A DNA stretch of 64,000 nt from Tritrichomonas foetus (taxonomy: Eukaryota; Parabasalia; Tritrichomonadida; Tritrichomonadidae). Position 1 is the first letter of the stretch; the number at the start of each line of letters is the position of its first letter. Shown piece after piece: positions 9,409 through 57,192 of the stretch. Under the pieces are notes generated by a model, which was given only the letters and a program-made list of their open reading frames with translations, made no database searches and was not told where the DNA came from. Both the position numbers and the translations under genes were made by a program. The stretch covers positions 41,154 to 105,153 of the forward strand of contig MLAK01000926.1 in NCBI GenBank assembly GCA_001839685.1, read 5' to 3'.

Positions 9409-10080
9409 TTATTGTTTTGTTGGTGGAATTTGTTTGATAGGCTTTGCTGGAACACCTGCCGCAACAACATTTGAAGGAATGTCTTTTGCAACGACAGCAC
9501 CAGCAGCAATAACAACATTATCACCGATTGTAACACCTGGGCAAATTGTTGCATTAGCACCAATCCAACAATTCTTACCAATTTTGATTGGCTTGGCACT
9601 AAGTTCGGTTTCACGAGCCTTTGGATCAATTGGGTGGGTTGGTGTGACAATTGTAACTCCTGGTGAAAGTAATGTATTATCACCAAGTTCAACACTGTTC
9701 ACATCTAAAATAGTACATCCATAGTTCAAATAGCAGTTCTTGCCGAAGTGAATGTTAACACCATAATCAACAAAGAATGGTGGTTGAATGTAAAGATTTT
9801 CAGGATACTCACCACCGAGCAAATACTTGATGATTTCTTTTCGGCGCTCTGGCTCGTCTTCTGTTGTACGATAATTTAACTCTTCACACAATCTTCTTCC
9901 CTTAGCACGGAGTTGTTCCAAATGTGGGTCAAAATCGTCATAAGCACCACCAGCCATCATCACATCCCATGTCTTGCAGTTTTTTTCGAGGGCTTTGAGG
10001 CTCAAGTCAAGTTTTTCTTTAGCCAAAAATCGGGCAAAGAAACCTTGCGATTTTTGGTGACTGAGAACTTGGGAAAGCAT
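9409..10080 (-). CDS. Maltose/galactoside-type O-acetyltransferase, copy 1
   Basis: 223 residues. The longest frame starts at a GTG; I take the ATG at 10078-10080, which is preceded by a TCATTTTTT initiator-like motif. Residues ~40-100 match the Mac (maltose acetyltransferase) N-terminal domain: AGGAYDDFDP, then RR..E.LNYRT. They are followed by a left-handed beta-helix of hexapeptide repeats ending IGKNCWIGANATICPG and then IPSNVVAAGVPAKPI. The HP of PTHPID is where the catalytic His lies in LacA/Maa enzymes. These enzymes use acetyl-CoA to acetylate sugars, and the family is mostly bacterial, so gene transfer is likely. The ~35-residue N-terminal extension starts MLS and holds ARF, resembling hydrogenosomal presequences (inference). 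A diverged paralogue lies divergently at 11026. Confidence 0.88.
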   Translation of the reverse strand: MLSQVLSHQKSQGFFARFLAKEKLDLSLKALEKNCKTWDVMMAGGAYDDFDPHLEQLRAKGRRLCEELNYRTTEDEPERRKEIIKYLLGGEYPENLYIQPPFFVDYGVNIHFGKNCYLNYGCTILDVNSVELGDNTLLSPGVTIVTPTHPIDPKARETELSAKPIKIGKNCWIGANATICPGVTIGDNVVIAAGAVVAKDIPSNVVAAGVPAKPIKQIPPTKQ

Positions 10081-11025
10081 CACGAAAAAAAAATGAAGTT
10101 CGAGATTCTTTGGTGCTTCTATTCAATTTTCTCAAAAAGTTGAATGTGGTGGATGTGTGTTTTCAATATATAGTGAAATGAATGTAAATAATACAATTTT
10201 TTTCAGTTTTCTTTCAATTATAGGTAAAGGGTTTTTCAGAAAAGCGAATCGAGAACAACTCAATGAACTGGTGGTTAGTTTTGGATAAACATTGCATTAT
10301 TGAAGAATAATGCACACCTAAGTTGTAATCAATTTATTCACAGAAATATATCCAACTTATTCGGAATATTTGCCAAAAAAAATGTTTCATGAGTTTTAAA
10401 AGTAAATATCATTCTCGCTTGAACTTACTTAAGAATAACAACCTGTTTAAGAAACGTAATTAGCTTTCCTTTTAAATATTTCCATTTGAAGTTCCTATGC
10501 ACCAATTATTCATAATTAGAGACAAATTAACAATGATAATTATTATAGAAGCCATACACAGATGAATTTTCGTTGAGTCTTTTGGCATTCCTGGGATAAG
10601 AGCAGATATCAATTTTCACGAATTAATATGTACCCATCAAATTGAAAACTCATTTGTTGAAATCGGATTATCTTGTGATAGTCCCATTTTTTCTCATTAT
10701 AGATGTGAAAAAATATTATAATAACTATATTAATAATAATGAGCCATGAAAAATTATAATAAGATCTTTTTTTCTTGAGATGTAATGTGAGAATTTTTTC
10801 AGACATTTTTGAAAAAGTTATATTCATGTGGATTCAATGAAAAAATCACACAATTAATTTAACCTTGTTGTTTTGGTCGATTGGTTAATTTCGTCAATCA
10901 AGGTTATTTCACAAACAAAAAAATTCAAAGCAATTCAATGCTCTCACTCATATAAACCATATAAAAAGTTCCACGCATATTGGCATGGATATTGAAAAGT
11001 TCCTCAGTTCAATCGTTTCACAAAA
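10081..11025. other. Divergent intergenic region between the two acetyltransferases
   Basis: 945 bases shared as upstream sequence by two divergent acetyltransferase genes. AAAAAGTT occurs at 10134-10141 (about 55 bases before copy 1) and at 10963-10970 (about 55 bases before copy 2), with a related AAAAGTTCC near 10994. No gene is seen; small antisense frames here are noise. Confidence 0.5.
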
Positions 11026-11703
11026 ATGCTTTCAAGCTTCATCAAAACAGCAAAAGGTAATAATTCCCAAGCCAATTTAATGAGGTTTTTCACTTGGAAA
11101 AAGTGGGAGGCCAGCGACAAGCGCTCTGAATGGGAAAAAATGATCGCCGGTGATTTATACGATTCAACCGATCCATACCTTGTTAAGCTCCGCGAAAAAT
11201 GTCGTGCAACAATGGAAGAATACAATCTCAGAACAACAATTAAGGATTTGAACAGAAGAACAGAAGTTTTGAAAGAATTGATGAATGCAGAATACCCGGG
11301 ACTCTACATCGAACCGCCGATTTACTTTGACTATGGAATTAACACAACATTTGGTAAAGGATGCTACATGAACTATGGCTGCACAATTTTGGATGTCAAT
11401 AAAGTAACAATCGGTGACAACTGTCTCTTTGGTCCACAGGTTTGCCTTTACACAGCAACTCATCCAACCGACGTTCGTGAAAGACTTTTAGGGCCAGAAC
11501 TCGGCCTTCCGATTAAAATTGGAAATAATTGCTGGATCGGTGGAAGTGCAGTTATATGCCCAGGTGTAACTATCGGCGATAATGTTGTTGTAGCTGCCGG
11601 AGCAGTCGTCACAAAGGATATCCCATCAAACGTTATTGTTGGAGGAAATCCAGCCAAAATCCTCAAAAAGATGGAACCATACGAATATGTCAAAAAGGAT
11701 TAA
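11026..11703 (+). CDS. Maltose/galactoside-type O-acetyltransferase, copy 2
   Basis: 225 residues, ATG start. The architecture matches the paralogue at 9409-10080. A Mac-type N-terminal domain (AGDLYDSTDP near 41-50; RRTEVLKELMN) is followed by a left-handed beta-helix with FGKGCYMNYGC, IGNNCWIGG, PGVTIGDNVVVAAGAVVTKDIPSN and a closing GGNPAKIL. The likely catalytic His is in TATHPTD. It would transfer acetyl groups from acetyl-CoA to a sugar hydroxyl. The first ~35 residues are an extension absent from bacterial enzymes; it begins MLSSF and contains LMRFF, again like a trichomonad hydrogenosomal presequence. The two proteins are clearly related but well diverged, so the duplication is old. 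The exact sugar acceptor cannot be read from sequence. Confidence 0.88.
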   Translation: MLSSFIKTAKGNNSQANLMRFFTWKKWEASDKRSEWEKMIAGDLYDSTDPYLVKLREKCRATMEEYNLRTTIKDLNRRTEVLKELMNAEYPGLYIEPPIYFDYGINTTFGKGCYMNYGCTILDVNKVTIGDNCLFGPQVCLYTATHPTDVRERLLGPELGLPIKIGNNCWIGGSAVICPGVTIGDNVVVAAGAVVTKDIPSNVIVGGNPAKILKKMEPYEYVKKD

Positions 11704-13453: not shown

Positions 13454-14455
13454 CTAAATTTTAAAAAGTATAGATCAAGGTTAATTTTTATAAAAAAGTA
13501 ATTCAAAAGATTATTCAAAATTCAGATTATTTGAACTCTGAGATTTGTTTCAGAACTCTTCAGAAGACTTTTATATCTATGAAGCATGAGTTATCTAAAA
13601 TACATATGAAGCTTTTTTATTCCAGTGATTTTTAATTGAAATTATTGATGCAATTCACGACACTTTATATGAAGTAAATTTCTTTGAAATGTATAATGTA
13701 TGATACCTTTTGATAGTTTTATGATTCCCTGATGCGGTTAAGATATAGTAGACAATATAACTTCTCTATATATGATATAGAGTTTTAGCAATACTATTTA
13801 AGAGTTTATGAAGATAACAATGGATTAAAATTGAATAAGGGTGAAACTAAAATTTGACACTATGTCAAATCATCTTATTGTTCGCAATTTTGATTTTTCA
13901 ATTTATCTTCAACTCAATAACCAATTGAAATATAATTGTGTGTTTTTTATTTTTATTGAAAAGGACATTAACTGTTTTTTCAATAAATTTTACCTCTGAA
14001 AAGTCGAGTCAATAGGTCATGAGGTTCTTTTATTGCGATAATTTGTATTTAGATATAATGATGACACATTATTGGAAGTACAAATTGTATTCAGTGTTTA
14101 TCAATACATTAAGGTTTCGGATAAAATTTTTATATTTTATTGAAATGAAATACATTGAATGAAAATCATGAAATAATGATTCAATTGTTAATAAATTGTC
14201 AATAATAAATTTAAATCAACAAAGGGGATTCGACATTTTTCTCGTGAAGTGACTTTATTAATACAATCGAAAAGATCGTTTGTAACAAAAAATTTCCACG
14301 AATGCATGTCAGTGATAGCGATTATGATTTTTGGGTAATTATTCAATTTTTTTCGTTTGAGTTATTTTGCCAGAAAAGTTATGAATTCCCTATCAAAAAT
14401 TTTGGAATACATTTTTATCTTTACAATTTTGAATAAAGTTACTGGAATAATAAAT
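13454..14455. other. Intergenic, no gene seen
   Basis: About 1 kb of AT-rich DNA upstream of the kinase and downstream of the ankyrin fragment. No open frame with family features, no tandem repeat and no convincing structured RNA was seen. Confidence 0.4.
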
Positions 14456-15556
14456 TCAAATATTTATTAAAGCTATACTTTTTGCTTGCTCCACATATTT
14501 GTTATCTTCAGCATTAATTGTTATGTCATTCCTTGTCATAAAAAGATCAAGAATTTCTTTATTGGGATTTAGACAGGCAGCTTTAATTGGAACAACACCA
14601 TCATTATCTTCTTCATTTATCAAAATTCCCTTTATTTTCAGAAGCATTTTTACAATAGAAACATCAGAATTCATACAGGCGTAATGAAGAGCGGTTCTCC
14701 CTCCTTTATCTTTTACATTAATATCGAGTTGATTTGGCGCCTTTTTTAATAATATTTCTACTATTTCCGAATTCATTTCTTTTGTAGCAATATGCAAAGC
14801 AGTCATGCCATTTCTATTTTGTAAATTTAGATCTATTTTTGGATTTTCCAACAATGCATTCAAAATAGGAACTGTTTTAGCTTTATGAATTGGTGCTTCA
14901 TGCATCCATTTATTGGATGCATTAATATCAATATTTTCTTCATTTATTAATTGCAACACAACATTTTCATGCTCCTTTATACATGCAAAATGTAGTGGAG
15001 TCAATCCATCATTCGTCAAATCATTAATTTTTAGGATTTTTGTTGATAATAACGCTGTTGTTATTTCACCTAAACCATTTTTAGCAGCTAGATGTAGAGC
15101 ATTTCTTCCAAGGATATCTTTTTTTCCTAAATCAATATTCTGTTGCTTTATTAAAAATAAAGCGAGATCAGTGTTTTCTTGTTCAATTGCTAACATTAAA
15201 GGAGTGAATCCCATTTTTAAAGTTTGCATATTTATCATGTATTGATAATTTTTCATGATTTTTTGAGCAAGAAGGATCTCGACATTAGTTTGACATCCAG
15301 TTAAACACGCAATATGAATTGGCTTAATATTGTCTTCTGAGTTTTCATTAATATAATTTGTGAATTTTTCTGTTTCAATCAGGAATTGAAGAACACCTGA
15401 CGTCCAGTTTAAACATGAAAAATGAATTGCATTAAACTGTTGAGAATTTTTCGCAGAAATAATATCTTCTAGAATATCTTGGCTTTCTTCATTTGTAAGA
15501 ATTGCATTTACAATATTTGGATTTCCAGATAAACAAGCGCAATGTAAAGGTGTCAT
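14456..15556 (-). CDS. Ankyrin-repeat protein fragment, probably the 3' part of an interrupted gene
   Basis: 366 residues from the first ATG (15554-15556); the frame opens slightly earlier but only from a TTG. It consists almost wholly of ankyrin repeats. The first begins at residue 1 (MTPLHCACLSGN); later ones include TPLMLAIEQ, NALHLAAKNG, TPLHFACIKE, TALHIATKE and TALHYACMN. No N-terminal domain precedes the repeats. The gene directly upstream on the same strand (15669-17243) has the usual N-terminal domain but stops inside an ankyrin repeat with a similar signature (PLHNACLSGN). The simplest reading is one gene split by an interruption in about 110 bases of stop-rich sequence; a separate short ankyrin gene is the alternative. 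Ankyrin proteins bind other proteins; no enzyme is present. Confidence 0.6.
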   Translation of the reverse strand: MTPLHCACLSGNPNIVNAILTNEESQDILEDIISAKNSQQFNAIHFSCLNWTSGVLQFLIETEKFTNYINENSEDNIKPIHIACLTGCQTNVEILLAQKIMKNYQYMINMQTLKMGFTPLMLAIEQENTDLALFLIKQQNIDLGKKDILGRNALHLAAKNGLGEITTALLSTKILKINDLTNDGLTPLHFACIKEHENVVLQLINEENIDINASNKWMHEAPIHKAKTVPILNALLENPKIDLNLQNRNGMTALHIATKEMNSEIVEILLKKAPNQLDINVKDKGGRTALHYACMNSDVSIVKMLLKIKGILINEEDNDGVVPIKAACLNPNKEILDLFMTRNDITINAEDNKYVEQAKSIALINI

Positions 15557-15668
15557 TTCTGGATAAAATATTCGAAAACTCCATAAAAGCACTATCAAAC
15601 TGTTTTGTAAGTATTATATAGAAATATCAAAATGAAATTATCTAATAAAACTCTATTAATTATGAAAT

Positions 15669-17243
15669 TCAACAGTTTTTTGATAAAATCTTTAATGAAA
15701 CTGTTTTCTCACTTATGTTAAAAATTTTAGTTGATAATAAAGTCTTCACAGTTTCTTCATTACCTGATAAGCAAGCATTATGAAGTGGATTTTTATAATT
15801 AGAAATATTTTCATTAGCAAAAGTAAGTAAAAATTTTACAACATTCGTGTATCCATATAAAGATGCCATTTCCAAAAGGCAGGAATCACAAACACCTCTT
15901 TTCACAATATACATAAAGCATGTGATGTTTCCTGATTCAAAAATCGCCGTTGATATAGTTTTTATGGCGGCTTGAAGATCAATACTTCTATATTCAACAA
16001 GCCATTCAACAATATCTTGTTTATGATACATAATTGCTGTTTTAAGACATAAATCACAATCCCATTTCAAACTGTCATAGCATGTGCACATCTGCATCAT
16101 TTTCAGGATTTCGATATTTCCGCCAGCAGATGCAAATATTGCTGTTTCTTTTCGAAGTTTTGTTGCTCCATTATTTAATAACACTTTAAAGCATTCTATT
16201 GATCCATAAAATGCGCAGTACTCAATAATATAAACTTTATTATTAAGAAGAATTGAATTTTTCTCATAGTATGGGATTTGTACAAGTGCTTCAAAATTAA
16301 AGTGGTACTGAGTTAATGGTAGTAAACTTTTTGCATCATCTTCTCGAAGTATTTTCAAAAGTGTATCTTTTTCAGTTTCACCAATTAAAATATTATGTTT
16401 ATGTTCTTCCCAATTAACATTTAGTGAATGAAAAGGAACATCAAAATGCATTGTGTTTGGATTCATTAAATGGGCAAAAAACGGAGGTAATTTTGAATAA
16501 CACGGATAAATTTCATTGGGTTCAACTATCTTTTTTTCTATTAACCAAATTGTAAGGAAACTTAATTCTTGAAGATGTGTTCTATCATAAAAGAAATCTT
16601 TGTCAATTTTTAAGCGAAGATTTCTTAATACAATTTGTTTAAAAATCGGAAGAACTAATTTTGTTTTTCTTTCTATCGGCTTTTCGTTTAATGCAATTAA
16701 AAAGTCAATCAAAAATACAATATCTTGTGGTTTTGATAAGCATCGTCCTAAAAAAGTAATTAAATAAGGCTCCAAGTTGTTTTTGTTTAAAATCCTTGAT
16801 GTTTCAATAAAAATATTATCTTTGGTATCTTCATTGAGGGTAAAAACAATTCGCTCCAATGTTACTAATTCGCGGAGTTCAGGACTATTATCAACAGGTT
16901 TTGAGTATTTCTCATAGAACTCATTCAATTTGATTTCTAAATATTCAAATTTGATTTTGTCTAAAAATTTTTGAATAAAAGTTAAATTTGAGTATTTAAC
17001 TGTTATTTTTTTGTCGTTACTTAAAATATTCTTGATTAAAAGTTGATATGGTTCAATTGTTTTCATTTCAATTTGGATTTGAATTCTATCGGCTTTGGGA
17101 TTCGATTCACAGAATTCTTTGATTGTTCGGCTATATGAAGAAACTTTTCCTTTGTTTACTTTTGTACTAAATCCATTTACTATGATTTGAAAATCATACG
17201 GAAGATGATGAGAGTGATGTTTGTGTTCATGATGTTCACTCAT
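15669..17243 (-). CDS. Ankyrin protein with trichomonad-type N-terminal domain
   Basis: 524 residues, ATG at 17241-17243. A His-rich start (HEHKHHSHH) is followed by a ~330-residue helical region in the style of the N-terminal half of the large trichomonad and amoeba ankyrin families (often DUF3447-linked), with one-letter anchors such as SYSRTIKEFCESNP and RTHLQELSFLTIWLI. Ankyrin-like units follow from ~345 to the end (YIIEYCAFYGSIECFKVLL, ETAIFASAGGNIEILKMM, PLHNACLSGN). The frame ends abruptly inside a repeat, and ankyrin coding resumes ~110 bases downstream at 15556, suggesting truncation. Upstream are AACTTTTT at 17274-17281 and an inverted repeat GTCAC...GTGAC at 17250-17267 that may be regulatory. 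Confidence 0.7.
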   Translation of the reverse strand: MSEHHEHKHHSHHLPYDFQIIVNGFSTKVNKGKVSSYSRTIKEFCESNPKADRIQIQIEMKTIEPYQLLIKNILSNDKKITVKYSNLTFIQKFLDKIKFEYLEIKLNEFYEKYSKPVDNSPELRELVTLERIVFTLNEDTKDNIFIETSRILNKNNLEPYLITFLGRCLSKPQDIVFLIDFLIALNEKPIERKTKLVLPIFKQIVLRNLRLKIDKDFFYDRTHLQELSFLTIWLIEKKIVEPNEIYPCYSKLPPFFAHLMNPNTMHFDVPFHSLNVNWEEHKHNILIGETEKDTLLKILREDDAKSLLPLTQYHFNFEALVQIPYYEKNSILLNNKVYIIEYCAFYGSIECFKVLLNNGATKLRKETAIFASAGGNIEILKMMQMCTCYDSLKWDCDLCLKTAIMYHKQDIVEWLVEYRSIDLQAAIKTISTAIFESGNITCFMYIVKRGVCDSCLLEMASLYGYTNVVKFLLTFANENISNYKNPLHNACLSGNEETVKTLLSTKIFNISEKTVSLKILSKNC

Positions 17244-17249
17244 TCTAAT

Positions 17250-17281
17250 GTCACTTTTTAACGTGACAACATCAACTTTTT
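17250..17281 (-). promoter_or_regulatory. Candidate promoter elements of the ankyrin gene
   Basis: Immediately upstream of the ATG at 17243 is an imperfect hairpin with GTCAC and GTGAC arms (17250-17267) around TTTTTAAC, followed by AACTTTTT at 17274-17281. The 12-mer ACTTTTTAACGT seen here recurs at 29591-29602, before another gene. Function is inferred from position and recurrence only. Confidence 0.35.
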
Positions 17282-17598
17282 ATATGAATAAATGGCCTGA
17301 GAATAATTGTAAACGTATGATGAATAGTTGGCGAAAAGGAGACCCGAAGGAGTCATTTCATTTCTACAATAAGATTCTGTAATGATAATTGGGATAAATA
17401 ATCAGACAAAGAAAAGAAAGATAGAAGAAAAGAATTTTTTGATAACTAAATTTTATTGAATCTTTTTGTATGTCTATATTTATTGAGGTAATTTTTTTTC
17501 TTTGTTTTATTTTGTTTGTTTAATATTGTTTGCTGTATTTTGTTTGTTTTTGATCTTGATTTTGGTTTTGATTTTGATTTGGTTATAAAATAAAATTA

Positions 17599-20500
17599 TC
17601 AAATTCGATGACTACTTTTAGCCATTTCATAAAGTGAATTCGTAAATTCTTCATCTTGTGCAAGTGATTCCATTGTATAAGGGAAACGATAACGCCATTT
17701 ATGATTAGGATCAGAAGGAATATTAATTCTTTCTTCTTCTGGTGTTTGTAATGAAGCAAGATGTGGTGTAATACCTGTTAAATCTTGAAGAAGGAAGATT
17801 GCCCACATTGAATTTGACCAAAGATGTTTACGAATAATCATTTCACTAATTTCTGGTGTACATTCTTCTGGACATGGATCTTGACGCCAAAGAACATTCC
17901 TCCAATAATTACATGTCATTGGACGATTTTCTTCCCACCAACCTCGAAGTGATGATGAATCATGTGTTGATGGACAACAAACACTTAAATATTGAAATGT
18001 ATCTATTTCATCAAAATCATATTTAGGATCTTTAGACATTCGTTGAACTCTTAATGAAAGAAGTGCATGATCACGAAGACAATTTAAAATTCCTTCTGTA
18101 AGTTGTCCTAAATCTTCGGCACAAATTAACATATCGGTTGAATTCTTTAACATATCTAATTTAGCATTAGCTTTTTGAACCCAATTATATGTTTGACGAT
18201 TATATGTAAATTCAATATATAATTTTTCAAATTGTGATCGTTCATAATCTGATAATTCTTGCCATGATGATGAAAGATATTCAACTGGTCCATTTTTAGT
18301 TTCTTCAATATGATCTGTTTTAATTTCTGTTCGAACTTGATATGTTCCTTTTTGAACTGGATCTTCAATAAGAAGAACATTAGCAAGTAATTGAAATAGA
18401 CATGCACGATAATGTGAACGTTTTTCTTCTGGAAGTTCTTGAAGTGATAATTCAACTTTTGTTTCTGTATTATATTCTGATTTAAATTCATAATAATCAT
18501 CTTCTTGATTTTGATTTAATGAATTAAAATATTTTTCTGAAACAAATTTAGCTTCATTTCCAAATTTTTCTTGAAGAATATGCCATCGAACATAAGGTTT
18601 AAGATATCGTTCAAGATTTGAAAGTCCCCAATTTTGAAGTTCTTCAACTGTAAGTGGTGTACATGGGAAATAATGTCCTAACATACCTCGAATACATGGT
18701 TCTCGTGGAATTTCCCAAATACGGAAGAAACCAAGAACATGATCAACACGAAGAACTTGATATAATTCGGCCATTCGTTCAAGACGCATTCGCCACCAAC
18801 TATAATTATCTTTTTCCATATAATCCCAATCATATGTTGGAAATCCCCAATTTTGTCCATCTGATGAAAATGCATCTGGTGGTGCTCCTGCTGACATATT
18901 CATACGGAAATTATTTGGAAATGCCCAACATTCAACTGAATTTAAGAAAACTCCAATTGGAAGATCTCCTTTAAGAACAACTCCATTTCGAAGTGCATAA
19001 TCACGTGATTTCTTAAACTGAAGATCACAAACATATTGAAGCCAAAATGTAAATTTAAGATCTTCAAAATGATGTTGACTTAATTCTTCAACTTCTTCTG
19101 GTGTAATTTGTGAATGCTCTGGCCATTTTCGAAATTCGGATGTACCATATTGTTCTCGGAAATAACAATATAATGCATATGGGAATAACCATCGTTTATT
19201 CTTTTCAATAAATTCGTGAAATTCTTGTTGATATTTATTATTATTATTATTACTATTATTACTATCTTCACCTTCAAATTTAATAAGTTGAAAGATTTGT
19301 TGAAGAATATTCATTTTGAATGAATAAACTGATGGATAATCAATACTTGGTAATTTTTCAAACTCATTAATCTTATTTTCAATTAATTGTTTAATATCTT
19401 TTGGAAGATTTGGAATAATTGATAAAAGATCAATATAAATTGGATGAAGTGCGAAACATGAAGTTTGACGATATGGATAAGAATCTGCCCATCCACCATT
19501 ATCTGATGTATCATTAATTGGTAAAAGTTGAATTAATGATGCACCAACTTTATTACAAACATCAACAAGTTTTGGAATATCTGTATATTGACCAATTCCA
19601 CAACTTGTATTAGTTCTTAATGAGAAAATTGGTGCATAAATACCTAAGCCTTTAAATAATTCGGAATTTGGTAAAACAAACCATTCATTAATTTGAATGG
19701 ATGATGGAAAATCACAATCACATCCTGGTGTTGTAATTCCTACATTATAATGATTTTCACCTCCTTCCCACATAGTATTAATACCATCAACAATAACATA
19801 TTTATATGAAATTGGGAAATGTGAACGTTCAATAATTGTTAATGCACTCCACATTGGAAATTCTCCATCTTCCATAACAAGACCATTTCGATAATCCCAA
19901 TTTCCTAATTCTGGACAATTTCCAACAATTCGAACTGTTTGACCTGGTCGAACATGTGGACAATTCATTGTAAATCGTGTTTGAACTTTACCTGCAATAT
20001 TTCGTGATAAATCAAGAATTTGTGGATCAACATGTGTAAAACGACGATTAAATGCTTTAATAAATGGTGCACGTGTAAATACTTCAAGTGTTGAATCAAT
20101 CCATCGAAATGTATCTGCAATTTCTAAAACACTTGGATCACGAATGTTAGAAATATCAAGTTTATGTGATGCTTCTGGTTCCTATTCTGCATTGTTTTTA
20201 TCATATGCACGAATATATTTATATTCAATTTGTTGTGTTGATGTTGTTAATGGTAAACGAACAATACAACTCCAATAATCAAGATTATTTTCGAAATACA
20301 TTTGTTTGCTCTTATTAATATCCCAATTTCCAAGTTCTGGAATATTTCCACAAATATAAAGTTCTTGTCCATATTGTGTAAAACATCTGATTCTAAAGTG
20401 TAAAATTAATTCACCAATTGAGTTGTTAATATCGAATGTATCATATAAATCGAGTTCTGTTGATGAATCAGTAGTTGTAATAAATCTTTTTGAAACTTGT

Positions 20501-20736
20501 TCAAAAACTTCTGATCCAAGTTTTGGTTTGACGAAATAAGAATACCAAGAAAATTCTCCATTAGTTGGTTTTGTAATTTGAATGCTTGTTGCGAAGAAAT
20601 AAGGACCAGTAACTGATTGAAGTGGGATTGCTTTTGTGATGTCACCGCCTCCAAGTTCAGGTGCGCTGCCATAAACGTAAGGCTGGCATGAACCATTTCT
20701 GCTTGATTTAAGATGAAAGTTTAATGTTAAACTCAT
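17599..20736 (-). CDS. DPE2: DPE2-type 4-alpha-glucanotransferase, copy A, with in-frame TAG
   Basis: Translation from the ATG at 20736 (MSLTLNF) gives 184 residues, then a TAG at 20182-20184, then an uninterrupted same-frame continuation to TGA at 17599; 1045 sense-plus-TAG codons in all. The product is the same as copy B: three CBM20-like starch-binding modules, then a GH77 domain with catalytic Asp, Glu and Asp all present. DPE2 enzymes transfer a glucosyl unit from maltose to glycogen or a heteroglycan in the cytosol. Without readthrough, the short N-terminal product would hold only the first two modules. A downstream product could start at the ATG at codon 257 (MNCPH), giving 789 residues with the third module and GH77. 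An upstream in-frame ATG at 20790 is possible but less likely, because an initiator-like TCACTTTC lies between it and MSL. Confidence 0.85.
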
Positions 20737-20752
20737 TTTGTTTTCGAGAAAA

Positions 20753-20760
20753 GAAAGTGA
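20753..20760 (-). promoter_or_regulatory. Initiator-like TCACTTTC of DPE2 copy A
   Basis: TCACTTTC, 22 bases upstream of the MSL start codon, fits the trichomonad initiator pattern TCA-Y-W-T. It lies inside the inverted repeat, so both gene copies have it. Confidence 0.5.
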
Positions 20761-20788
20761 ACTAAAAAAATTAATACAATGATTTTTC

Positions 20789-21193
20789 ATCGTTTTTTTC
20801 TTTACTTCTCTGAAAAGTCTTCTCAAAAATTCAGAACCGGTGGAAGGGATACAAAAAGTTTCTCACATTGAATACATGCAATTTTTCTCAATTTAAATTG
20901 AAAATTTATTTGAACGTTGATCCATATGAATAGAACTTTTTCAAAATCAGGGATTCATATTCAATGATTGACATAACCTCAATAGATAATGTCTTTCGTT
21001 TCAACTCTATTACATCTCATAGCAATAGCACATATAAATAAGTATATAAATTAAAGACAGCCATTCGAGGGCAGATGATCTAGAGAAATTATTTAAGAAC
21101 TTTTTGAAAATACGGTTCAATTCAAAAAGTGATACCCATGTATTTTTTGAGGGGAAAAAACAGATTAGGATGAATTCATTCATACAATATGGA
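20789..21193. other. 405-bp unique spacer between inverted-repeat arms
   Basis: Single-copy centre of the palindrome, between the divergent 5' ends of the two DPE2 copies. It holds AAAAAGTT at 20853-20860, AACTTTTT at 20934-20941 and 21098-21105, AAAAAGTG near 21127, and a perfect 12-base palindrome CAATTTAAATTG near 20889. The two halves are not symmetric, so upstream regulation of the copies could differ although their core promoters are identical. Confidence 0.7.
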
Positions 21194-21221
21194 GAAAAAT
21201 CATTGTATTAATTTTTTTAGT

Positions 21222-21229
21222 TCACTTTC
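21222..21229 (+). promoter_or_regulatory. Initiator-like TCACTTTC of DPE2 copy B
   Basis: Mirror of the element at 20753-20760, with its A 22 bases before the ATG at 21246. This supports MSL rather than the upstream ATG at 21189 as the translation start. Confidence 0.5.
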
Positions 21230-21245
21230 TTTTCTCGAAAACAAA

Positions 21246-24200
21246 ATGAGTTTAACATTAAACTTTCATCTTAAATCAAGCAGAAATGGTTCATGCCAGC
21301 CTTACGTTTATGGCAGCGCACCTGAACTTGGAGGCGGTGACATCACAAAAGCAATCCCACTTCAATCAGTTACTGGTCCTTATTTCTTCGCAACAAGCAT
21401 TCAAATTACAAAACCAACTAATGGAGAATTTTCTTGGTATTCTTATTTCGTCAAACCAAAACTTGGATCAGAAGTTTTTGAACAAGTTTCAAAAAGATTT
21501 ATTACAACTACTGATTCATCAACAGAACTCGATTTATATGATACATTCGATATTAACAACTCAATTGGTGAATTAATTTTACACTTTAGAATCAGATGTT
21601 TTACACAATATGGACAAGAACTTTATATTTGTGGAAATATTCCAGAACTTGGAAATTGGGATATTAATAAGAGCAAACAAATGTATTTCGAAAATAATCT
21701 TGATTATTGGAGTTGTATTGTTCGTTTACCATTAACAACATCAACACAACAAATTGAATATAAATATATTCGTGCATATGATAAAAACAATGCAGAATAG
21801 GAACCAGAAGCATCACATAAACTTGATATTTCTAACATTCGTGATCCAAGTGTTTTAGAAATTGCAGATACATTTCGATGGATTGATTCAACACTTGAAG
21901 TATTTACACGTGCACCATTTATTAAAGCATTTAATCGTCGTTTTACACATGTTGATCCACAAATTCTTGATTTATCACGAAATATTGCAGGTAAAGTTCA
22001 AACACGATTTACAATGAATTGTCCACATGTTCGACCAGGTCAAACAGTTCGAATTGTTGGAAATTGTCCAGAATTAGGAAATTGGGATTATCGAAATGGT
22101 CTTGTTATGGAAGATGGAGAATTTCCAATGTGGAGTGCATTAACAATTATTGAACGTTCACATTTCCCAATTTCATATAAATATGTTATTGTTGATGGTA
22201 TTAATACTATGTGGGAAGGAGGTGAAAATCATTATAATGTAGGAATTACAACACCAGGATGTGATTGTGATTTTCCATCATCCATTCAAATTAATGAATG
22301 GTTTGTTTTACCAAATTCCGAATTATTTAAAGGCTTAGGTATTTATGCACCAATTTTCTCATTAAGAACTAATACAAGTTGTGGAATTGGTCAATATACA
22401 GATATTCCAAAACTTGTTGATGTTTGTAATAAAGTTGGTGCATCATTAATTCAACTTTTACCAATTAATGATACATCAGATAATGGTGGATGGGCAGATT
22501 CTTATCCATATCGTCAAACTTCATGTTTCGCACTTCATCCAATTTATATTGATCTTTTATCAATTATTCCAAATCTTCCAAAAGATATTAAACAATTAAT
22601 TGAAAATAAGATTAATGAGTTTGAAAAATTACCAAGTATTGATTATCCATCAGTTTATTCATTCAAAATGAATATTCTTCAACAAATCTTTCAACTTATT
22701 AAATTTGAAGGTGAAGATAGTAATAATAGTAATAATAATAATAATAAATATCAACAAGAATTTCACGAATTTATTGAAAAGAATAAACGATGGTTATTCC
22801 CATATGCATTATATTGTTATTTCCGAGAACAATATGGTACATCCGAATTTCGAAAATGGCCAGAGCATTCACAAATTACACCAGAAGAAGTTGAAGAATT
22901 AAGTCAACATCATTTTGAAGATCTTAAATTTACATTTTGGCTTCAATATGTTTGTGATCTTCAGTTTAAGAAATCACGTGATTATGCACTTCGAAATGGA
23001 GTTGTTCTTAAAGGAGATCTTCCAATTGGAGTTTTCTTAAATTCAGTTGAATGTTGGGCATTTCCAAATAATTTCCGTATGAATATGTCAGCAGGAGCAC
23101 CACCAGATGCATTTTCATCAGATGGACAAAATTGGGGATTTCCAACATATGATTGGGATTATATGGAAAAAGATAATTATAGTTGGTGGCGAATGCGTCT
23201 TGAACGAATGGCCGAATTATATCAAGTTCTTCGTGTTGATCATGTTCTTGGTTTCTTCCGTATTTGGGAAATTCCACGAGAACCATGTATTCGAGGTATG
23301 TTAGGACATTATTTCCCATGTACACCACTTACAGTTGAAGAACTTCAAAATTGGGGACTTTCAAATCTTGAACGATATCTTAAACCTTATGTTCGATGGC
23401 ATATTCTTCAAGAAAAATTTGGAAATGAAGCTAAATTTGTTTCAGAAAAATATTTTAATTCATTAAATCAAAATCAAGAAGATGATTATTATGAATTTAA
23501 ATCAGAATATAATACAGAAACAAAAGTTGAATTATCACTTCAAGAACTTCCAGAAGAAAAACGTTCACATTATCGTGCATGTCTATTTCAATTACTTGCT
23601 AATGTTCTTCTTATTGAAGATCCAGTTCAAAAAGGAACATATCAAGTTCGAACAGAAATTAAAACAGATCATATTGAAGAAACTAAAAATGGACCAGTTG
23701 AATATCTTTCATCATCATGGCAAGAATTATCAGATTATGAACGATCACAATTTGAAAAATTATATATTGAATTTACATATAATCGTCAAACATATAATTG
23801 GGTTCAAAAAGCTAATGCTAAATTAGATATGTTAAAGAATTCAACCGATATGTTAATTTGTGCCGAAGATTTAGGACAACTTACAGAAGGAATTTTAAAT
23901 TGTCTTCGTGATCATGCACTTCTTTCATTAAGAGTTCAACGAATGTCTAAAGATCCTAAATATGATTTTGATGAAATAGATACATTTCAATATTTAAGTG
24001 TTTGTTGTCCATCAACACATGATTCATCATCACTTCGAGGTTGGTGGGAAGAAAATCGTCCAATGACATGTAATTATTGGAGGAATGTTCTTTGGCGTCA
24101 AGATCCATGTCCAGAAGAATGTACACCAGAAATTAGTGAAATGATTATTCGTAAACATCTTTGGTCAAATTCAATGTGGGCAATCTTCCTTCTTCAAGAT

Positions 24201-24383
24201 TTAACAGGTATTACACCACATCTTGCTTCATTACAAACACCAGAAGAAGAAAGAATTAATATTCCTTCTGATCCTAATCATAAATGGCGTTATCGTTTCC
24301 CTTATACAATGGAATCACTTGCACAAGATGAAGAATTTACGAATTCACTTTATGAAATGGCTAAAAGTAGTCATCGAATTTGA
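21246..24383 (+). CDS. DPE2: DPE2-type 4-alpha-glucanotransferase, copy B, with in-frame TAG
   Basis: Start ATG 21246; in-frame TAG at 21798-21800 (codon 185); open again to TGA at 24381-24383. Domains by codon: CBM20-like 1 (~5-95), CBM20-like 2 (~114-185, PELGNWDINKS), CBM20-like 3 (~249-345, PELGNWDYRNG), GH77 (~361-1030). GH77 signatures are GIGQYTDIPKL, GAPPDAFSSDGQNWG, the nucleophile Asp in RVDHVLGF (codon at 23238), the acid/base Glu in CAEDLGQ (23865) and the third carboxylate in THDSS (24021). Plant DPE2 has two CBM20 modules; three here is unusual. The codons after the TAG (EPEASHKLD...) keep normal coding character up to the third module, so the stop interrupts what is otherwise one gene. 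Either readthrough gives a full protein or two pieces are made. Confidence 0.87.
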
Positions 24384-24580
24384 TAATTTTATTTTATAAC
24401 CAAATCAAAATCAAAACCAAAATCAAGATCAAAAACAAACAAAATACAGCAAACAATATTAAACAAACAAAATAAAACAAAGAAAAAAAATTACCTCAAT
24501 AAATATAGACATACAAAAAGATTCAATAAAATTTAGTTATCAAAAAATTCTTTTCTTCTATCTTTCTTTTCTTTATCTGA

Positions 24581-25254
24581 CTCTTTTGGAATTCACTTTG
24601 TTTGTATTTCTTTTTTTAGGTTAGGATTTATCTTTTTTTGATTTTTGAACTTCTTGTTTTTCTCATTTTTTTGTTTTAGGCTACACTTTCAGTGGATGGT
24701 GCTTTTGAATATAACCATCACAATGACTGACAATTCAATCAATATATTAAAAAAAAAAAAATATCAGAATATTATTGAATGATAGAATATATTTACTTTA
24801 CATAATAAAAAAATCGCATGATTAATTCCAATGATAGTGATTAGCGGAAAATCAGCATATATATTGATAGATAGATAGATCGATAGATAGATATAGATAG
24901 ATATATCGATATAGACAGATAGATATTTCCTTTGATGCTATTAGATTTTTTCAATCCTGTTAAATTTTTATTTATGCTTTGGTCTAATATTCAACATCAT
25001 TTTGATAGTCAAAGTTTGTCAGGTTCTCAAATCGAGAAGACTTTATATATTCACATGTGATGAAATATTTTGTCATCTTCCTCCTTGACGATTGGTATTG
25101 AGAACATTTTCAATGATTAAAAAAAATTATCATTCGAGTAAATGGTCGATCTCTTGAAAATATTCCGAAAATATATTGCAAGATGAAATTCTCTGAACCG
25201 ATTTCGCTTTTTTCAATATGAAATAAAATGCCACAGTTTTGAAGACAATTAATT
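24581..25254. other. Intergenic with GATA microsatellite
   Basis: Unique DNA outside the right arm. It contains a pyrimidine-rich stretch, a poly-A run near 24750 and a GATA/GATC-type microsatellite at 24865-24926. No gene is seen before the 3' end of the kinase at 25255. Confidence 0.5.
24865..24926. repeat. (GATA)n microsatellite, imperfect
   Basis: About 60 bases of GATA units with scattered C and TA changes, for example GATAGATAGATAGATCGATA. Confidence 0.8.
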
Positions 25255-26313
25255 TTATAGCTTGGAATAACATGATCGTTGTGGGCTAATTTTGAGTGAT
25301 GAGTAAAATGTTGGTAGTCCTGTCGATTTTCTGTGTTGGAAAGCTAGTGTTGGTCGACTTGGTACATTGGTGTAATTCAATTTATGGCTTAACGGAGAAC
25401 TAATTCCAAGAATATTTCTCACATTCATTCTTGCACTGCTGCTATTTTCAATTTTCTTTCTCGGCATGTCACTAATGCAGCATTTATTGAGGAAAGGATC
25501 AAATAATAAATCAGCTGCAGATGGTCTAAAAACGTGATTGTAGGAAAGCATTTTTGTGATCAAGTTTTCAAAATCCTTATCGATTTCAACATCTTTTGGA
25601 AAAACAAAGTTTTTACGATTAGAAATTTCCTCTTCAATTGTTTCTGCAAGCGGGAAAGGAAGTTTTCCTGTTGCCATTTCATAGAACGTCACGCCAAGTG
25701 CATAGACATCGGCTTTATAGAGGTCAACAATCATCATGCTCTTTTTTTGATCATCAGTAGCATAAAAAGCAAGCATTTCAGGTGATAAATATGGAACCGA
25801 ACCACACACATCATTAATTTTTTGACATTTCGTCCATTTCATTGAAAGTCCAAAATCACTGAATTTTGGTCTTCCGTAACTATCGTAAAGAATGTTTGGC
25901 GGTTTTATATCACGGTGTGTAATATTATTAGAATGCAAATATTGAAGGGCCGATACTAGGCTTTCTGCTAAGACACGTAGATTTGGAACAGCTAAAGTTA
26001 GCATAAAAGGAAATATTGTTTCTTTTTCCAGCAAAAGCTCTAAAATCAAGAACAGATAATTTTGATATACGAAATATTGGAAAAGTCGGATAACATTTGG
26101 GTGGTCAATCATCATCAAGGTGCAAAGCTCTGGTTCGTACAAGCATCCATCTTCTCCGATTAGCCCTTCTTCAAGTTTTTGAACTTTTGCGCAATAATAA
26201 ACATTATATTTGGTCGACCTCACCAAAAATACTTCAGCATATGATCCACGACCAATATGCTGAAGAAATTCGTAGTTCTCAAGTTCAAAGGGAAGCATTT
26301 CCACGAATTCCAT
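25255..26313 (-). CDS. Ser/Thr protein kinase, CAMK-like
   Basis: 352 residues, ATG at 26311-26313. The kinase domain spans ~14-275: GRGSYAEVF loop (21-29), K43 in YCAKVQK, HRDIKPPN (133-140), DFG in FSDFGLS (153-155), and activation segment CGSVPYLSPEM followed by a ~10-residue insert (FYATDDQKKS) before DVYALGVTFYEMATG. Catalytic residues are intact. The insert after the SPE motif and the PPN (rather than PEN) of the catalytic loop are atypical. The C-terminal ~75 residues are basic and Ser-rich. It is one of six kinases in the window, and its target is unknown. Confidence 0.9.
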   Translation of the reverse strand: MEFVEMLPFELENYEFLQHIGRGSYAEVFLVRSTKYNVYYCAKVQKLEEGLIGEDGCLYEPELCTLMMIDHPNVIRLFQYFVYQNYLFLILELLLEKETIFPFMLTLAVPNLRVLAESLVSALQYLHSNNITHRDIKPPNILYDSYGRPKFSDFGLSMKWTKCQKINDVCGSVPYLSPEMLAFYATDDQKKSMMIVDLYKADVYALGVTFYEMATGKLPFPLAETIEEEISNRKNFVFPKDVEIDKDFENLITKMLSYNHVFRPSAADLLFDPFLNKCCISDMPRKKIENSSSARMNVRNILGISSPLSHKLNYTNVPSRPTLAFQHRKSTGLPTFYSSLKISPQRSCYSKL

Positions 26314-27758
26314 GAGACTTGAAAAAATAGGATTCCGCTTTTGAAATAATTACCGATTTTCTATGAATTCAAATGTTGTGAGAATGGATAAAAACTAATC
26401 TGATTGTTGAACAATTCATTCAATTACATCATTTTTCATAACATTATTTTTCTGGATTGAATATATTCTGTAAAATTGATAAATGTTCTTTTCTGAAAAG
26501 GAATCATTCAAATTAGTAAACTCTTTCAGAAAATAATCCGACATCAGAATTTTTTTGAATACTTGAGATAATTAATCTGTTGGAATGAGGGATATATTTC
26601 GTCAAACAATAACAAATATTTCGATTACTTATAATCTATTTTGGATAATTTGAGGAAGTTCATGGTTCAAGAATTGAGAATGAAGGTTTTATAAACTCAC
26701 TTATATTGAAAAAGTTATTTTATCGGATTTTATTTAGCGAAAATTGCAGAAAAATAAATCTACATTGAAAATAATTCAAATATTCAGAAAGATCTGATGA
26801 AATACAAATATAAATTGAATAGTTGATAGAAAATTTTGAGTAATCCATAATTTATCAACAACCGGTCTTAAAATAGGTCAATAACGTTTTTTAAACTTCT
26901 TTTTTTTCACTTAAAAAAGGTGAAAATATATTTCTAAAGGTGAAAATGAACTTTTCAAAATTTAATGGTCAATGCGATTTAAGATTGAAGCTTAGGCATG
27001 TTCTGTTATGCCCAGGTGCTCCATAATATGTGCAAAAGTGTACTGATATCTTTTTCTGGACTTCTCCCAAAATCACATTCTTGGTAGGAGAGTAGTGAGT
27101 TTACATTTTGATGTTTAGAGTTGGTGGCATTGAATTACCGACATTATTTTGTAGATTTGAGAAATTGAGATTCGTAATGATATTATCCAGTAAAGCATTC
27201 TAATGATTTTGGAAAATGCACTATATTTGCAATAAATAAAAATACATCATTATTTTGGAAAAAAGAAAACAGAAATAATTTTAAATTGTTATTTGCCGAA
27301 AATGGAGCATAACAAAAAATATGCAACCATTTCAGAAAAATCATGGATTTGATTATCATCAAATAATAGAGAATATGAAATAATTTGAAACAAAAGGATA
27401 TAATATATAATGATGGTTGTATTATGTGCAGTTGTAAATCCTATATTTGCAAAAACAAAGATTTCAATATCGTTGTTGTCAAATTCTTTTCTTTATATGT
27501 ATCTGCACAATTATTTCAAAAAATGAGTCACTGAGAGAGCTAAAAGATAGAAATAGGGCCGATTTTTTTGATTTTCTATTTTTGTTCAAAAAAAAAATAA
27601 AAAAGGAAATAAACAATGGCTGGTTGATTTCCGTTGTGGTATTCGAGAAAGTAAATGGGTTTTCTCTTCTTATTACCAGATAAAAGAGATCGATGTATTG
27701 TATTCAAAATGCTATCGTTCAATTATAAATAAATAAACGTGCCGAATTTGTTTGAAAA
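26314..27758. other. Long divergent intergenic region
   Basis: About 1.4 kb between divergent kinase and polyQ-protein genes. AAAAAGTT lies near 26708. Around 26985-27110 a locally less AT-rich patch can form two small stems (GGCAT/ATGCC at 26995-27012, CTCC/GGAG near 27064-27090), a weak candidate for a structured RNA. A 78-codon frame at 27447-27683 shows no family feature. Confidence 0.4.
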
Positions 27759-29453
27759 ATGTGCGATCCAGCTGAAATGGTCGCAGGACTGAAGTCAGAT
27801 TTCCAACAAATCAAACAACAAAGAGAGAAGATTTTTGATGGCGCAAATGCTTTTTTCGACAAACTTTTTGCTGAACATTTTGATTTCCAATCCGAGGATG
27901 TTGTTCATCAACACGTAGATTTTTCAGATGACGATGAAGAGAGTGAAGATGAGCCAACAAGATATCGTTTAATGACTATGAGAACCATGCCCGTTTTCGA
28001 TCGCAAACCAAAAAAAAAGAAGCCAAAGCCTTTACCACAGGAATTGCCAGTAGAACTTCCTCCTCCAGTTATTATCAAGCCGATTACTATTGATAAACAC
28101 ACCCAATCCAAAAAAACTGAATTAAAAAGTCATGAAACGCAAACATCATTAAAATCAGCATATAAAGACACCGCTATTATTGCAACAACTTCTGCTGAAG
28201 TTCAGACACATTCAATTCGATTAAGAAATGAAGCATCAAATACTGATTCAGTTTTGCCGTCTTATGAAAATGTATGCATAGCATTTCTTGAAAGTTTACT
28301 GGAAGATGCACCTGTTTTCCTCAATTCTGGGCCAAAACCAGATCAAATTGAGGGCATTTTGATGGACTTTTTAAATCAAATTCTTTCAGACGCAAAGAAC
28401 TTCAATGATCCAAATGATTTTCATACAAGTGGATCTTCACATCAATCTTCTGGACTCATTAAACGTGCCAAATTAGTTGATGTTAACATTCAACAAGAAG
28501 CATCACTTCAAACAATTGCAACACAATCCCCAATTTCCCTTAAAACTTTAGAAACACCATCAGTAACATTTAATTATATTCCTCCACCTAAAGATAATTA
28601 TTTTGTTGGAACCTTTATGTCACCTGCTGCATGTTTTGATCGTCCACCCGATAATCGTTTCCGTATGATGCGCGTTGCCAGAGGTGATAATTTTGCTTAT
28701 CCGCCGTCACTTCGAACTGAACCTGAAAAGCCCCCATTTCGAATGACAACAGAATCAACATCTCCAATTTCCAATAAAAAGAGTGAAAAAGCCACCGCAA
28801 CTGTAGCTCAAAACAAAATATTACAAATGGATATTCTTGATAATATGAATGTTTCTGTTAGACCTGACGCAAATGCAGGAAATCAGTCAATACTTCCACC
28901 ATCATCATTCTTACCACCAACACAGCAGCCTCCACAAATGATTCCTCCTCCACTTCATTCCACTCAAACTACAATTCCTCAACAGCCGCCACAACAACAG
29001 CAACAACAGCAGTATCAAACACAACAACAGCAGCAGCAGCAGCAGTTTCAAACACAACAACAGCAACAACAACAACCTCCAAAGCAAGACATGGATGTAC
29101 CGAAATTAAATCCATTGATTATTAAACCGCTTGAAGATATTGAGGAATTATCCAATTTCAATTTAGATTCATTTATTCATGATTTGAATTCATCATCAAC
29201 GCCATCTGAAGGTGATGATGACTCTGACGTTGACTCAAGTGGAAGATATACGGGTTCAAATTCATCAGTAAATAGTTCAATGATATCCAGTGTTCTTGGA
29301 TCGAGTGGATATTCAAATGAAATCATATCATCTGAAGGCGTTCTCAGTTCTGGTGAAGTGAGAGACTTTAGCTATCTTGAATCAGATAGTGGTTTATCAG
29401 GAATTACAGGATCAAGTGAATCGAGTGCACCATGGGAATGGTATAAGAAGTAA
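27759..29453 (+). CDS. PolyQ-containing protein of unknown function
   Basis: 564 residues, ATG start. I do not recognise the family. The N-terminal ~45 residues are predicted helical (FQQIKQQREKIFDGANAFFDKLF); an acidic patch DDDEESEDEP near 60 and a KKKKPKPLP basic/proline stretch near 85 follow. Several TQT/TQS-like motifs (HTQSKK, ETQTS, VQTHS, ATQSP; ~120-265) resemble LC8 dynein-light-chain docking sites, though this is only pattern matching. Residues ~385-445 are Pro/Gln-rich with three polyQ runs coded by mixed CAA/CAG. The C-terminus is Ser/Gly/Asp-rich. It is likely a disordered scaffold, and the next gene (29633) is co-oriented 180 bases downstream. Confidence 0.75.
   Translation: MCDPAEMVAGLKSDFQQIKQQREKIFDGANAFFDKLFAEHFDFQSEDVVHQHVDFSDDDEESEDEPTRYRLMTMRTMPVFDRKPKKKKPKPLPQELPVELPPPVIIKPITIDKHTQSKKTELKSHETQTSLKSAYKDTAIIATTSAEVQTHSIRLRNEASNTDSVLPSYENVCIAFLESLLEDAPVFLNSGPKPDQIEGILMDFLNQILSDAKNFNDPNDFHTSGSSHQSSGLIKRAKLVDVNIQQEASLQTIATQSPISLKTLETPSVTFNYIPPPKDNYFVGTFMSPAACFDRPPDNRFRMMRVARGDNFAYPPSLRTEPEKPPFRMTTESTSPISNKKSEKATATVAQNKILQMDILDNMNVSVRPDANAGNQSILPPSSFLPPTQQPPQMIPPPLHSTQTTIPQQPPQQQQQQQYQTQQQQQQQQFQTQQQQQQQPPKQDMDVPKLNPLIIKPLEDIEELSNFNLDSFIHDLNSSSTPSEGDDDSDVDSSGRYTGSNSSVNSSMISSVLGSSGYSNEIISSEGVLSSGEVRDFSYLESDSGLSGITGSSESSAPWEWYKK
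28987..29079. repeat. CAA/CAG trinucleotide tract (polyQ)
   Basis: Three glutamine blocks separated by YQT and FQT, coded by interspersed CAA and CAG. The repeat of the TATCAAACA/TTTCAAACA spacers suggests slippage of a larger unit as well as single codons. Confidence 0.85.
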
Positions 29454-30877: not shown

Positions 30878-31027
30878 ATTTATCTTTTCTTTGTGTGTTC
30901 TTAAAAAAATTGATAATACTTAATATTAACATTTTATTTATTTTTTACTCAATCAAACTGGATTACTGTGTTTATGAAGGCATTGGATTTTTCTTTATCA
31001 TGTCTTTATTCCTTCAACTTAATTCTC

Positions 31028-31112
31028 AACATAATTTCTGCAGCATGATTTCTGCAGCATAACTTCTGCAACATAATTTCTGCAACATGATTTCTGCAAC
31101 ATAACTTCTGCA
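31028..31112. repeat. 14-bp minisatellite, left side of gap
   Basis: About six units of consensus AACATRAYTTCTGC, with R and Y positions alternating between units. It runs straight into a run of N and resumes at 31940 in the same phase style, so the unsequenced part is very probably more of the same repeat. Frames through it (VAEIMLQKLCC repeats) are artefacts. Confidence 0.9.
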
Positions 31113-31939
31113 NNNNNNNNNNNNNNNNNNNNNNNNNNNNNNNNNNNNNNNNNNNNNNNNNNNNNNNNNNNNNNNNNNNNNNNNNNNNNNNNNNNNNNNN
31201 NNNNNNNNNNNNNNNNNNNNNNNNNNNNNNNNNNNNNNNNNNNNNNNNNNNNNNNNNNNNNNNNNNNNNNNNNNNNNNNNNNNNNNNNNNNNNNNNNNNN
31301 NNNNNNNNNNNNNNNNNNNNNNNNNNNNNNNNNNNNNNNNNNNNNNNNNNNNNNNNNNNNNNNNNNNNNNNNNNNNNNNNNNNNNNNNNNNNNNNNNNNN
31401 NNNNNNNNNNNNNNNNNNNNNNNNNNNNNNNNNNNNNNNNNNNNNNNNNNNNNNNNNNNNNNNNNNNNNNNNNNNNNNNNNNNNNNNNNNNNNNNNNNNN
31501 NNNNNNNNNNNNNNNNNNNNNNNNNNNNNNNNNNNNNNNNNNNNNNNNNNNNNNNNNNNNNNNNNNNNNNNNNNNNNNNNNNNNNNNNNNNNNNNNNNNN
31601 NNNNNNNNNNNNNNNNNNNNNNNNNNNNNNNNNNNNNNNNNNNNNNNNNNNNNNNNNNNNNNNNNNNNNNNNNNNNNNNNNNNNNNNNNNNNNNNNNNNN
31701 NNNNNNNNNNNNNNNNNNNNNNNNNNNNNNNNNNNNNNNNNNNNNNNNNNNNNNNNNNNNNNNNNNNNNNNNNNNNNNNNNNNNNNNNNNNNNNNNNNNN
31801 NNNNNNNNNNNNNNNNNNNNNNNNNNNNNNNNNNNNNNNNNNNNNNNNNNNNNNNNNNNNNNNNNNNNNNNNNNNNNNNNNNNNNNNNNNNNNNNNNNNN
31901 NNNNNNNNNNNNNNNNNNNNNNNNNNNNNNNNNNNNNNN
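31113..31939. other. Assembly gap (827 N)
   Basis: Unresolved bases inside the 14-bp minisatellite; the true length of the array is unknown. Confidence 1.
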
Positions 31940-32016
31940 CATGATTTCTGCAGCATAACTTCTGCAACATGATTTCTGCAACATAACTTCTGCAGCATGA
32001 TTTCTGCAACATGATT
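31940..32016. repeat. 14-bp minisatellite, right side of gap
   Basis: Five or so further AACATRAYTTCTGC units before unique sequence resumes, 130 bases from the 3' end of the cyclin gene. Confidence 0.9.
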
Positions 32017-32147
32017 TTTAGAACCACTTTCTTTTTGAAAAAATTTCCAATTTGACAATTTTTATCGGAGCAATATAACCAACTTTGATCAAACCCAAAA
32101 TAAACATCGAAAATAAACTAATTATTTATTATACAATAGCTAAAAAT

Positions 32148-56624: not shown

Positions 56625-56650
56625 ATATGTCTGAATATTTCAATTTTTCA

Positions 56651-57163: not shown

Positions 57164-57192
57164 CTATTTTTCATTCACTTCTATTTTTCATC
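57164..57192. repeat. 17-bp minisatellite, right of second gap
   Basis: One and a half further CTATTTTTCATTCACTT units before unique sequence. Confidence 0.75.

Follow-up and report, generated by a model that had tools for sequence, protein, structure and literature searches.

A stretch of 64,000 nucleotides of Tritrichomonas foetus DNA (GenBank assembly GCA_001839685.1, contig MLAK01000926.1, positions 41,154 to 105,153 of the forward strand), referred to here as the window, contains a palindrome of about 7.2 kb in which two DPE2 reading frames diverge from a common spacer. An earlier note, made from the sequence alone, had described a giant, nearly perfect inverted repeat at this place, and the repeat was confirmed by base-by-base comparison: position x pairs with position 41982-x without a single mismatch over 17408-20788, i.e., 3381 bp, around a unique spacer of 405 bp. 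The arms had been given as 3387 bp from 17402; the pairing of x with 41982-x and the spacer length were correct, while one mismatch at 17407 reduces the exact arms to 3381 bp. We tentatively regard the palindrome as a real and recent inverted duplication of a gene-sized piece. The features of the locus are as follows.

17396..17407, no strand: fuzzy left outer edge, adjoining a purine-rich tract and agreeing with the right edge at 9 of 12 positions
17408..20788, minus strand: left arm of 3381 bp, with DPE2 on the minus strand; pairs with 21194-24574 as its reverse complement, with 0 mismatches
17599..20736, minus strand: left DPE2 reading frame, CBM20 domains and GH77, one in-frame stop (from translation, and from Pfam on the identical right-arm open reading frames, ORFs)
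20182..20184, minus strand: in-frame TAG of the left copy, mirror of 21798-21800
20789..21193, no strand: spacer, unique, 405 bp, the common upstream region of the two divergent DPE2 genes
21194..24574, plus strand: right arm, 3381 bp, DPE2 on the plus strand
21222..21229, plus strand: putative initiator-like sequence, located within the arm 24 bp upstream of the ATG; left-arm mirror at 20753-20760
21246..24383, plus strand: right DPE2 reading frame, CBM20 domains and GH77, one in-frame stop (from translation, Pfam and alignment)
21798..21800, plus strand: in-frame TAG of the right copy, codon 185; 34 of 35 aligned relatives have a residue here and 1 of 35 has a gap
22014..24383, plus strand: downstream open frame, 789 aa, with one CBM20 (E 5.8e-13) and GH77 (E 2.2e-134) by Pfam
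24575..24586, no strand: fuzzy right outer edge, mirror of the left outer edge

In each arm the DPE2 frame is preceded by 52 bp of 5′ flank and followed by 191 bp of 3′ flank. The palindrome stands between an ankyrin gene (15669-17243) and a kinase gene (25255-26313). A repeat search (seed 20, minimum 40) returned exactly one inverted pair in 14000-28000, and a chance origin is excluded because 3362 of the 3373 inverted 20-mer pairs in the 64-kb window fall on the one diagonal of the palindrome. If the arms are independent, the 0 differences, which include 243 bp of non-coding flank, place a 95% upper bound of 8.9e-4 on the divergence between them. The two kinds of edge are dissimilar, with short imperfect homology at the outer edge and none at the inner one. 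The inner edge is abrupt (5 of 12 positions match beyond the arm), and the two spacer ends, 200 bp each, were found to have no residual homology (score 23 against a shuffle mean of 20.4 and maximum of 30). At the outer edge, matches resume beyond the mismatch at 17407, namely at 17402-17406, 17400 and 17396-17398; for random 12-mer pairs from the window the 9 of 12 matches have P = 0.0017, the stretch having been picked post hoc.

The search for further copies covered 63.7 Mb in 1064 contigs, from which small contigs may be absent (the published draft has 68.5 Mb in 1573 scaffolds). The arms were matched at 100% in two places, which are these arms alone (14 of 14 candidates scored). A paralogue on contig C769, at 71%, comes next among the long matches, and the shorter ones include pieces of 46-162 bp, up to 91% identical, in the low-complexity 3′ flank of the arm. 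The spacer has itself as its sole match, and the left and right flanks have short matches elsewhere only. The earlier note had mentioned gene amplification as a possible outcome of such a palindrome; the assembly has just two copies. The palindrome is gap-free and its arms contain no N, although the scaffold is gapped elsewhere. Two N runs lie in the window, at 31113-31939 and 56680-57163, as fits a gapped scaffold, and the ORFs spanning them (31006-32058, 31019-31984, 31026-32027, 56627-57202 and 56674-57174) are probably N-run artefacts.

The assignment of the arm gene to DPE2 is based on its domains and its closest relatives, which agree with known DPE2 proteins, i.e., a GH77 catalytic domain preceded by N-terminal CBM20 modules. 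The GH77 domain (PF02446, 449 bits) occupies residues 113-763 of the 789-aa frame. CBM20 (PF00686) is found in two stretches before the in-frame stop, the later one truncated by it, and in one stretch after it. The 789-aa frame aligns to the plant 4-alpha-glucanotransferase structure 1x1n across the RVDH, AEDLG and THD motifs, which we take to be catalytic. Over the same part the closest relatives are an unnamed ENA-sourced protein (82%) and Tritrichomonas musculus DPE2 (72%). Unlike the known proteins, the frame here is not uninterrupted, as TAG occupies codon 185 in both arms. The view that each arm holds a whole DPE2 gene is therefore wrong at the protein level.

The likely start of DPE2 would be the ATG located 52 bp into the arm, at 21246 on the right and at 20736 on the left, where the relatives begin. 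The inner edges had been placed exactly at an in-frame upstream ATG; those ATGs, the positions of which differ by one codon between the arms, fall at or across the edge of the spacer, and they were rejected as starts since the relatives begin at the inner ATG. The element at 21222..21229 may correspond to the trichomonad initiator consensus. As for the claim that a full transcription unit was copied, the copied piece is indeed gene-sized, with the initiator-like sequence in its 52 bp of 5′ flank and with 191 bp of 3′ flank, but its frame is interrupted.

The alignment at codon 185 consists of 35 rows, i.e., 34 database proteins of more than 800 aa and the C769 paralogue (P0036 and P0037 were dropped for length). 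Database proteins cannot display stops by construction, and the C769 paralogue, read from DNA, is the sole independent sign that the frame is normally open. GH77 matches were found on ten further contigs, some of them partial, and none of the ten has a stop inside the match. On the sequence, the TAG is most simply a nonsense codon. A sense meaning under an alternative genetic code was considered and is unlikely, and general read-through is likewise unlikely because TAG terminates the kinase ORF at 41424-42752 and just 1 of 135 kinase rows has an internal TAG. One internal in-frame TAG each was also noted in a kinase gene (C405:40061-40819), two Ras genes (C977:6647-7156 and C566:9715-10140) and an ABC gene (C146:90505-92268); these are scattered nonsense codons, comparable to those in the reports on T. 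vaginalis families.

Near pairs of genes with equal scores were surveyed across six gene families. The survey was read by eye, and in the large families a fraction of the candidates was scored (134 of 1798 for kinases, 150 of 503 for Ras and 19 of 130 for ABC). Five pairs were obtained: DPE2, two ABC pairs, a tandem peptidase pair on C359 and a Ras pair on C123. The Ras pair was rejected as a palindrome, there being no DNA self-match in its 5.5 kb. The peptidase pair (C359:111802-112434 and 116497-117129, both on the plus strand) consists of tandem cysteine peptidase genes with equal profile scores. The assembly has at least three palindromes, those of DPE2 and two of ABC genes. In 197,000 bases (the window and sampled stretches, with 36,696 N), no other repeat of at least 300 bp was found inside any sampled contig; the reading of such palindromes as rare, which came from this sampling, was dropped after the ABC survey. 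A bias of local paralogues to inverted order is unsupported overall, as near pairs occur in both orders (by eye), and the cysteine peptidases of C488 stand mostly on one strand (also by eye).

The two ABC palindromes are quartets of half-transporter genes in the order A (minus), B (plus), B′ (minus), A′ (plus), at C536:233388-244202, on the window's own scaffold, and at C494:281-11326. All four of their gene pairs are mosaics, each with a diverged segment: tracts with zero differences, of 1722 and 943 bp in C536 and of 1733 and 904 bp in C494, lie beside homologous coding segments which are 12-48% diverged at the DNA level. In the A/A′ pair of C536, the 1722-bp tract is accompanied by first 40 codons that differ at 54 nucleotides and by C-termini that differ with insertions. 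The B/B′ pair of the same quartet has 2 nucleotide differences in codons 1-150 and 54 in codons 151-300; the remainder, beginning with codon 301, has 0. The B/B′ pair of C494 has 91 differences in codons 1-100 and 0 afterwards, and its 1733-bp tract extends 228 bp beyond the stop codon, ending within 79 bp of its mirror. In the A/A′ pair of C494, codons 41-320, next to the 904-bp tract, are about 33% diverged in DNA. The tracts lack synonymous differences along with all others. The divergent A-B unit was also found singly on nine other contigs (by eye, with 73 of 97 candidates scored).

From their sequences, the ABC mosaics would be the mark of recent gene conversion between the arms, provided that the assembler did not write one arm over its partner. 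The tracts were measured in inverted pairs and may not be special to inverted order. We consider this conversion signature in the sibling palindromes to be the most interesting result of the analysis, its main weaknesses being the probable short-read assembly and a comparison confined to inverted pairs.

These mosaics bear directly on an alternative origin of the DPE2 palindrome, in which an old inverted pair has been homogenised by gene conversion wherever its arms still pair, while its flanks drifted beyond recognition. The stop would then have arisen in one arm and been spread to the other, and conversion would indeed leave a stop common to both. Inverted arms of >99% identity and a unique spacer, as present here, are what such a process maintains, and all four ABC gene pairs of the same assembly have the mosaic, zero-difference tracts expected of it. 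Random placement of the differences gave such runs in none of 2000 draws for each B pair (bounds 1e-68 and 2e-14). The A-B intergenic stretch of C536, including the first A codons, aligns no better than shuffles (score 24 against a shuffle mean of 23.7), so that absent flank homology is no proof of youth, and for the dispersed ABC relatives the highest DNA identity to the C494 region over more than 500 bp is 76% (40 of 61 candidates scored). Nevertheless, no diverged segment was found anywhere over the 3381 bp of the DPE2 arms, which therefore show no mosaic, unlike each ABC gene pair, and any fault of this assembly could also affect the ABC tracts, which were taken from it. We regard an old, homogenised pair as rather unlikely for DPE2.

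A recent duplication is favoured because the DPE2 arms lack a diverged segment whereas each of the four ABC pairs has one. The interpretation that the DPE2 palindrome is real and arose recently, as an inverted duplication of gene size, in a genome whose inverted copies seem to convert each other, is given a probability of roughly 0.43. Not long ago in this T. foetus line, one piece of chromosome, comprising the DPE2 frame with its 52 bp of 5′ flank and 191 bp of 3′ flank, would have been copied a single time, in inverted orientation, at a distance of 405 bp. The likely route is template switching, either in replication or in the repair of a break. At the inner edge the nascent strand may have moved over to the opposite strand and copied the gene back, and rejoining may have taken place at the outer edge, in the purine-rich tract where both flanks resemble each other. 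The stop codon was probably present beforehand, in which case a broken gene was doubled, and later gene conversion between the inverted copies could renew their identity. The template switch, the order of events, and the correctness of the assembly are all inferred. A transposon with terminal inverted repeats was considered as the source of the arms and rejected: they contain no transposase, all ORFs of at least 150 aa there being pieces of DPE2, and no target-site direct repeat was seen flanking 17396/24586 (by eye).

Several observations weigh against a recent duplication. The 300 bp of outer flank on each side align no better than shuffles (score 22 against a shuffle mean of 21.8), and the 9 of 12 matches at the outer edge, picked post hoc, are suggestive only. 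The continuation of identity into non-coding DNA would be no proof of youth, given that the B tract of C494 also passes its stop codon by 228 bp. By analogy with the TMAC genes of T. vaginalis, the stops of which are, with one possible exception among 40 aligned pseudogenes, not common to copies (PMC2914791), a doubled pseudogene would be unusual. Finally, if the assembly is the strain K draft, the identity of the arms and their common stop are not independently proven and amount to one observation rather than two.

The last point depends on how the assembly was made. Most probably it is the draft of T. foetus strain K, which was built by AllPaths-LG and a gap filler out of 454 reads, Illumina paired ends, and mate pairs of 3 and 8 kb (PMC5399258). 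Three of 3 T. foetus database proteins that were compared with the assembly matched loci in it at 100%. Short reads are not assignable to one arm, and therefore 100% identity together with a shared stop would be a single pooled-consensus observation. This raises the explanation that a short-read assembler or gap filler wrote one real DPE2 copy, or two differing copies, twice. An AllPaths-LG assembly of Illumina reads with gap filling, if this is the K draft (PMC5399258), would be open to such a fault, and false duplications are documented in genome assemblies (PMC9516828). The long tracts of all three palindromes have zero or near-zero differences, as a duplicated consensus would give. Moreover, the A arms of C536 each have a single-base N, at 235021 and 242416, and the two positions are exact mirrors of each other; this suggests one pooled consensus as the source of both arms there.

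The DPE2 locus itself is less easily explained in this way. Four distinct junctions, two outer and two inner, join the arms to sequence without another long match, unlike what a single-copy gene would lead one to expect. The 8-kb mate pairs, used along with the 3-kb ones, span the 7.2-kb palindrome; this is gap-free, and the DPE2 arms, having no N, carry no flagged variant. No contig fragment among the scored matches resembles a missing diverged version, the best other long matches being 71% for the DPE2 arm and 76% for C494; an orphan diverged version of an ABC tract was likewise not found among the scored matches (40 of 61 candidates). An assembly artefact is therefore judged unlikely, though it is to be taken seriously. 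A long-read chimera from a missing adapter was rejected, as no long-read platform is named for the K assembly in its publication and the outer flanks are unlike each other.

The DPE2 enzyme family acts on maltose, and a second DPE2 copy could have been selected in culture if it helped strain K in maltose medium. Strain K was in fact grown in Trypticase-yeast extract-maltose medium (PMC5399258). The in-frame stop in both assembled copies makes this reading weak, and the ten other contigs with GH77 matches (some partial), none stopped inside the match, also speak against it. We consider culture selection very improbable. Of the three options in the earlier note, recent duplication, conversion and artefact, all survive, and conversion gains support from the two ABC palindromes.

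Two further observations were made in the window. A head-to-head pair of paralogues, 9409-10083 (minus) and 11026-11703 (plus), encodes maltose-acetyltransferase-type hexapeptide proteins that are clearly diverged at the protein level, and it is for this reason taken as an old inverted pair. At 33260-35683, on the minus strand, lies a gene of glycoside hydrolase family 81 that also encodes a carbohydrate-binding module.

Taken together, the DPE2 palindrome and the two ABC quartets may represent a class of gene palindromes in T. foetus whose adjacent inverted copies continually overwrite each other, a generalization which we put at somewhat short of even odds. T. foetus is usually regarded as a clonal protist. 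If the generalization is true, an abrupt loss of identity between copies would be confined to places where the arms have become too different to pair, and such palindromes would provide a local route by which genes are doubled with little flank and by which mutations, the DPE2 stop for example, are spread or erased. A gene-sized inverted copy with both junctions visible, together with its siblings, makes local inverted duplication testable as a source of new copies, and arm-to-arm conversion testable as what keeps or breaks them. If the ABC tracts are copies made by the assembler, they are a warning for paralogue comparisons from this draft genome.

In the portions of the trichomonad literature on palindromes, inverted duplications or repeats, and gene conversion that were covered, no report of gene palindromes in Tritrichomonas was found, and the main text of the KV-1 genome paper, as far as it was covered, has no word beginning with "palindrom" or "inverted". 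The closest trichomonad parallel is the TMAC family of T. vaginalis (PMC2914791). TMAC genes multiply mostly without their flanks and pseudogenes are frequent; large families were tied to duplication with few flanking copies, the mechanism of which was left without a "smoking gun". No stop was common among 40 aligned pseudogenes, with one exception, possibly an assembly error, and one clear gene conversion or crossover event was described. TMAC and the DPE2 pair are alike in a gene copied with little flank, in an in-frame stop, and perhaps in conversion. TMAC copies, however, are mostly dispersed (several on one contig in 12 of 90 instances) with unshared stops, whereas the DPE2 copies are adjacent, inverted and carry the same stop.

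In ODIRA, too, inverted copies arise from replication error at short homologies, but the products are inverted triplications, and DPE2 has two copies in the assembly. The linear amplicons of Leishmania also provide a case of inverted duplication in a protist; they differ in being extrachromosomal, drug-selected, and formed at pre-existing inverted repeats (PMC4256157). Sex-chromosome palindromes with gene conversion, as in the mammalian X (PMC8981503), the human Y (PMC5591018) and willow (PMC7023750), are set apart by their location, since the palindromes here lie in a T. foetus assembly with no known sex chromosome; the arms are a few kb long, those of DPE2 are non-mosaic, and the assembly is probably of short reads. 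What they share with the DPE2 palindrome are inverted gene-bearing arms, a unique spacer, and near-perfect identity, and conversion-like tracts, a further point in common, are found here in the sibling ABC palindromes.

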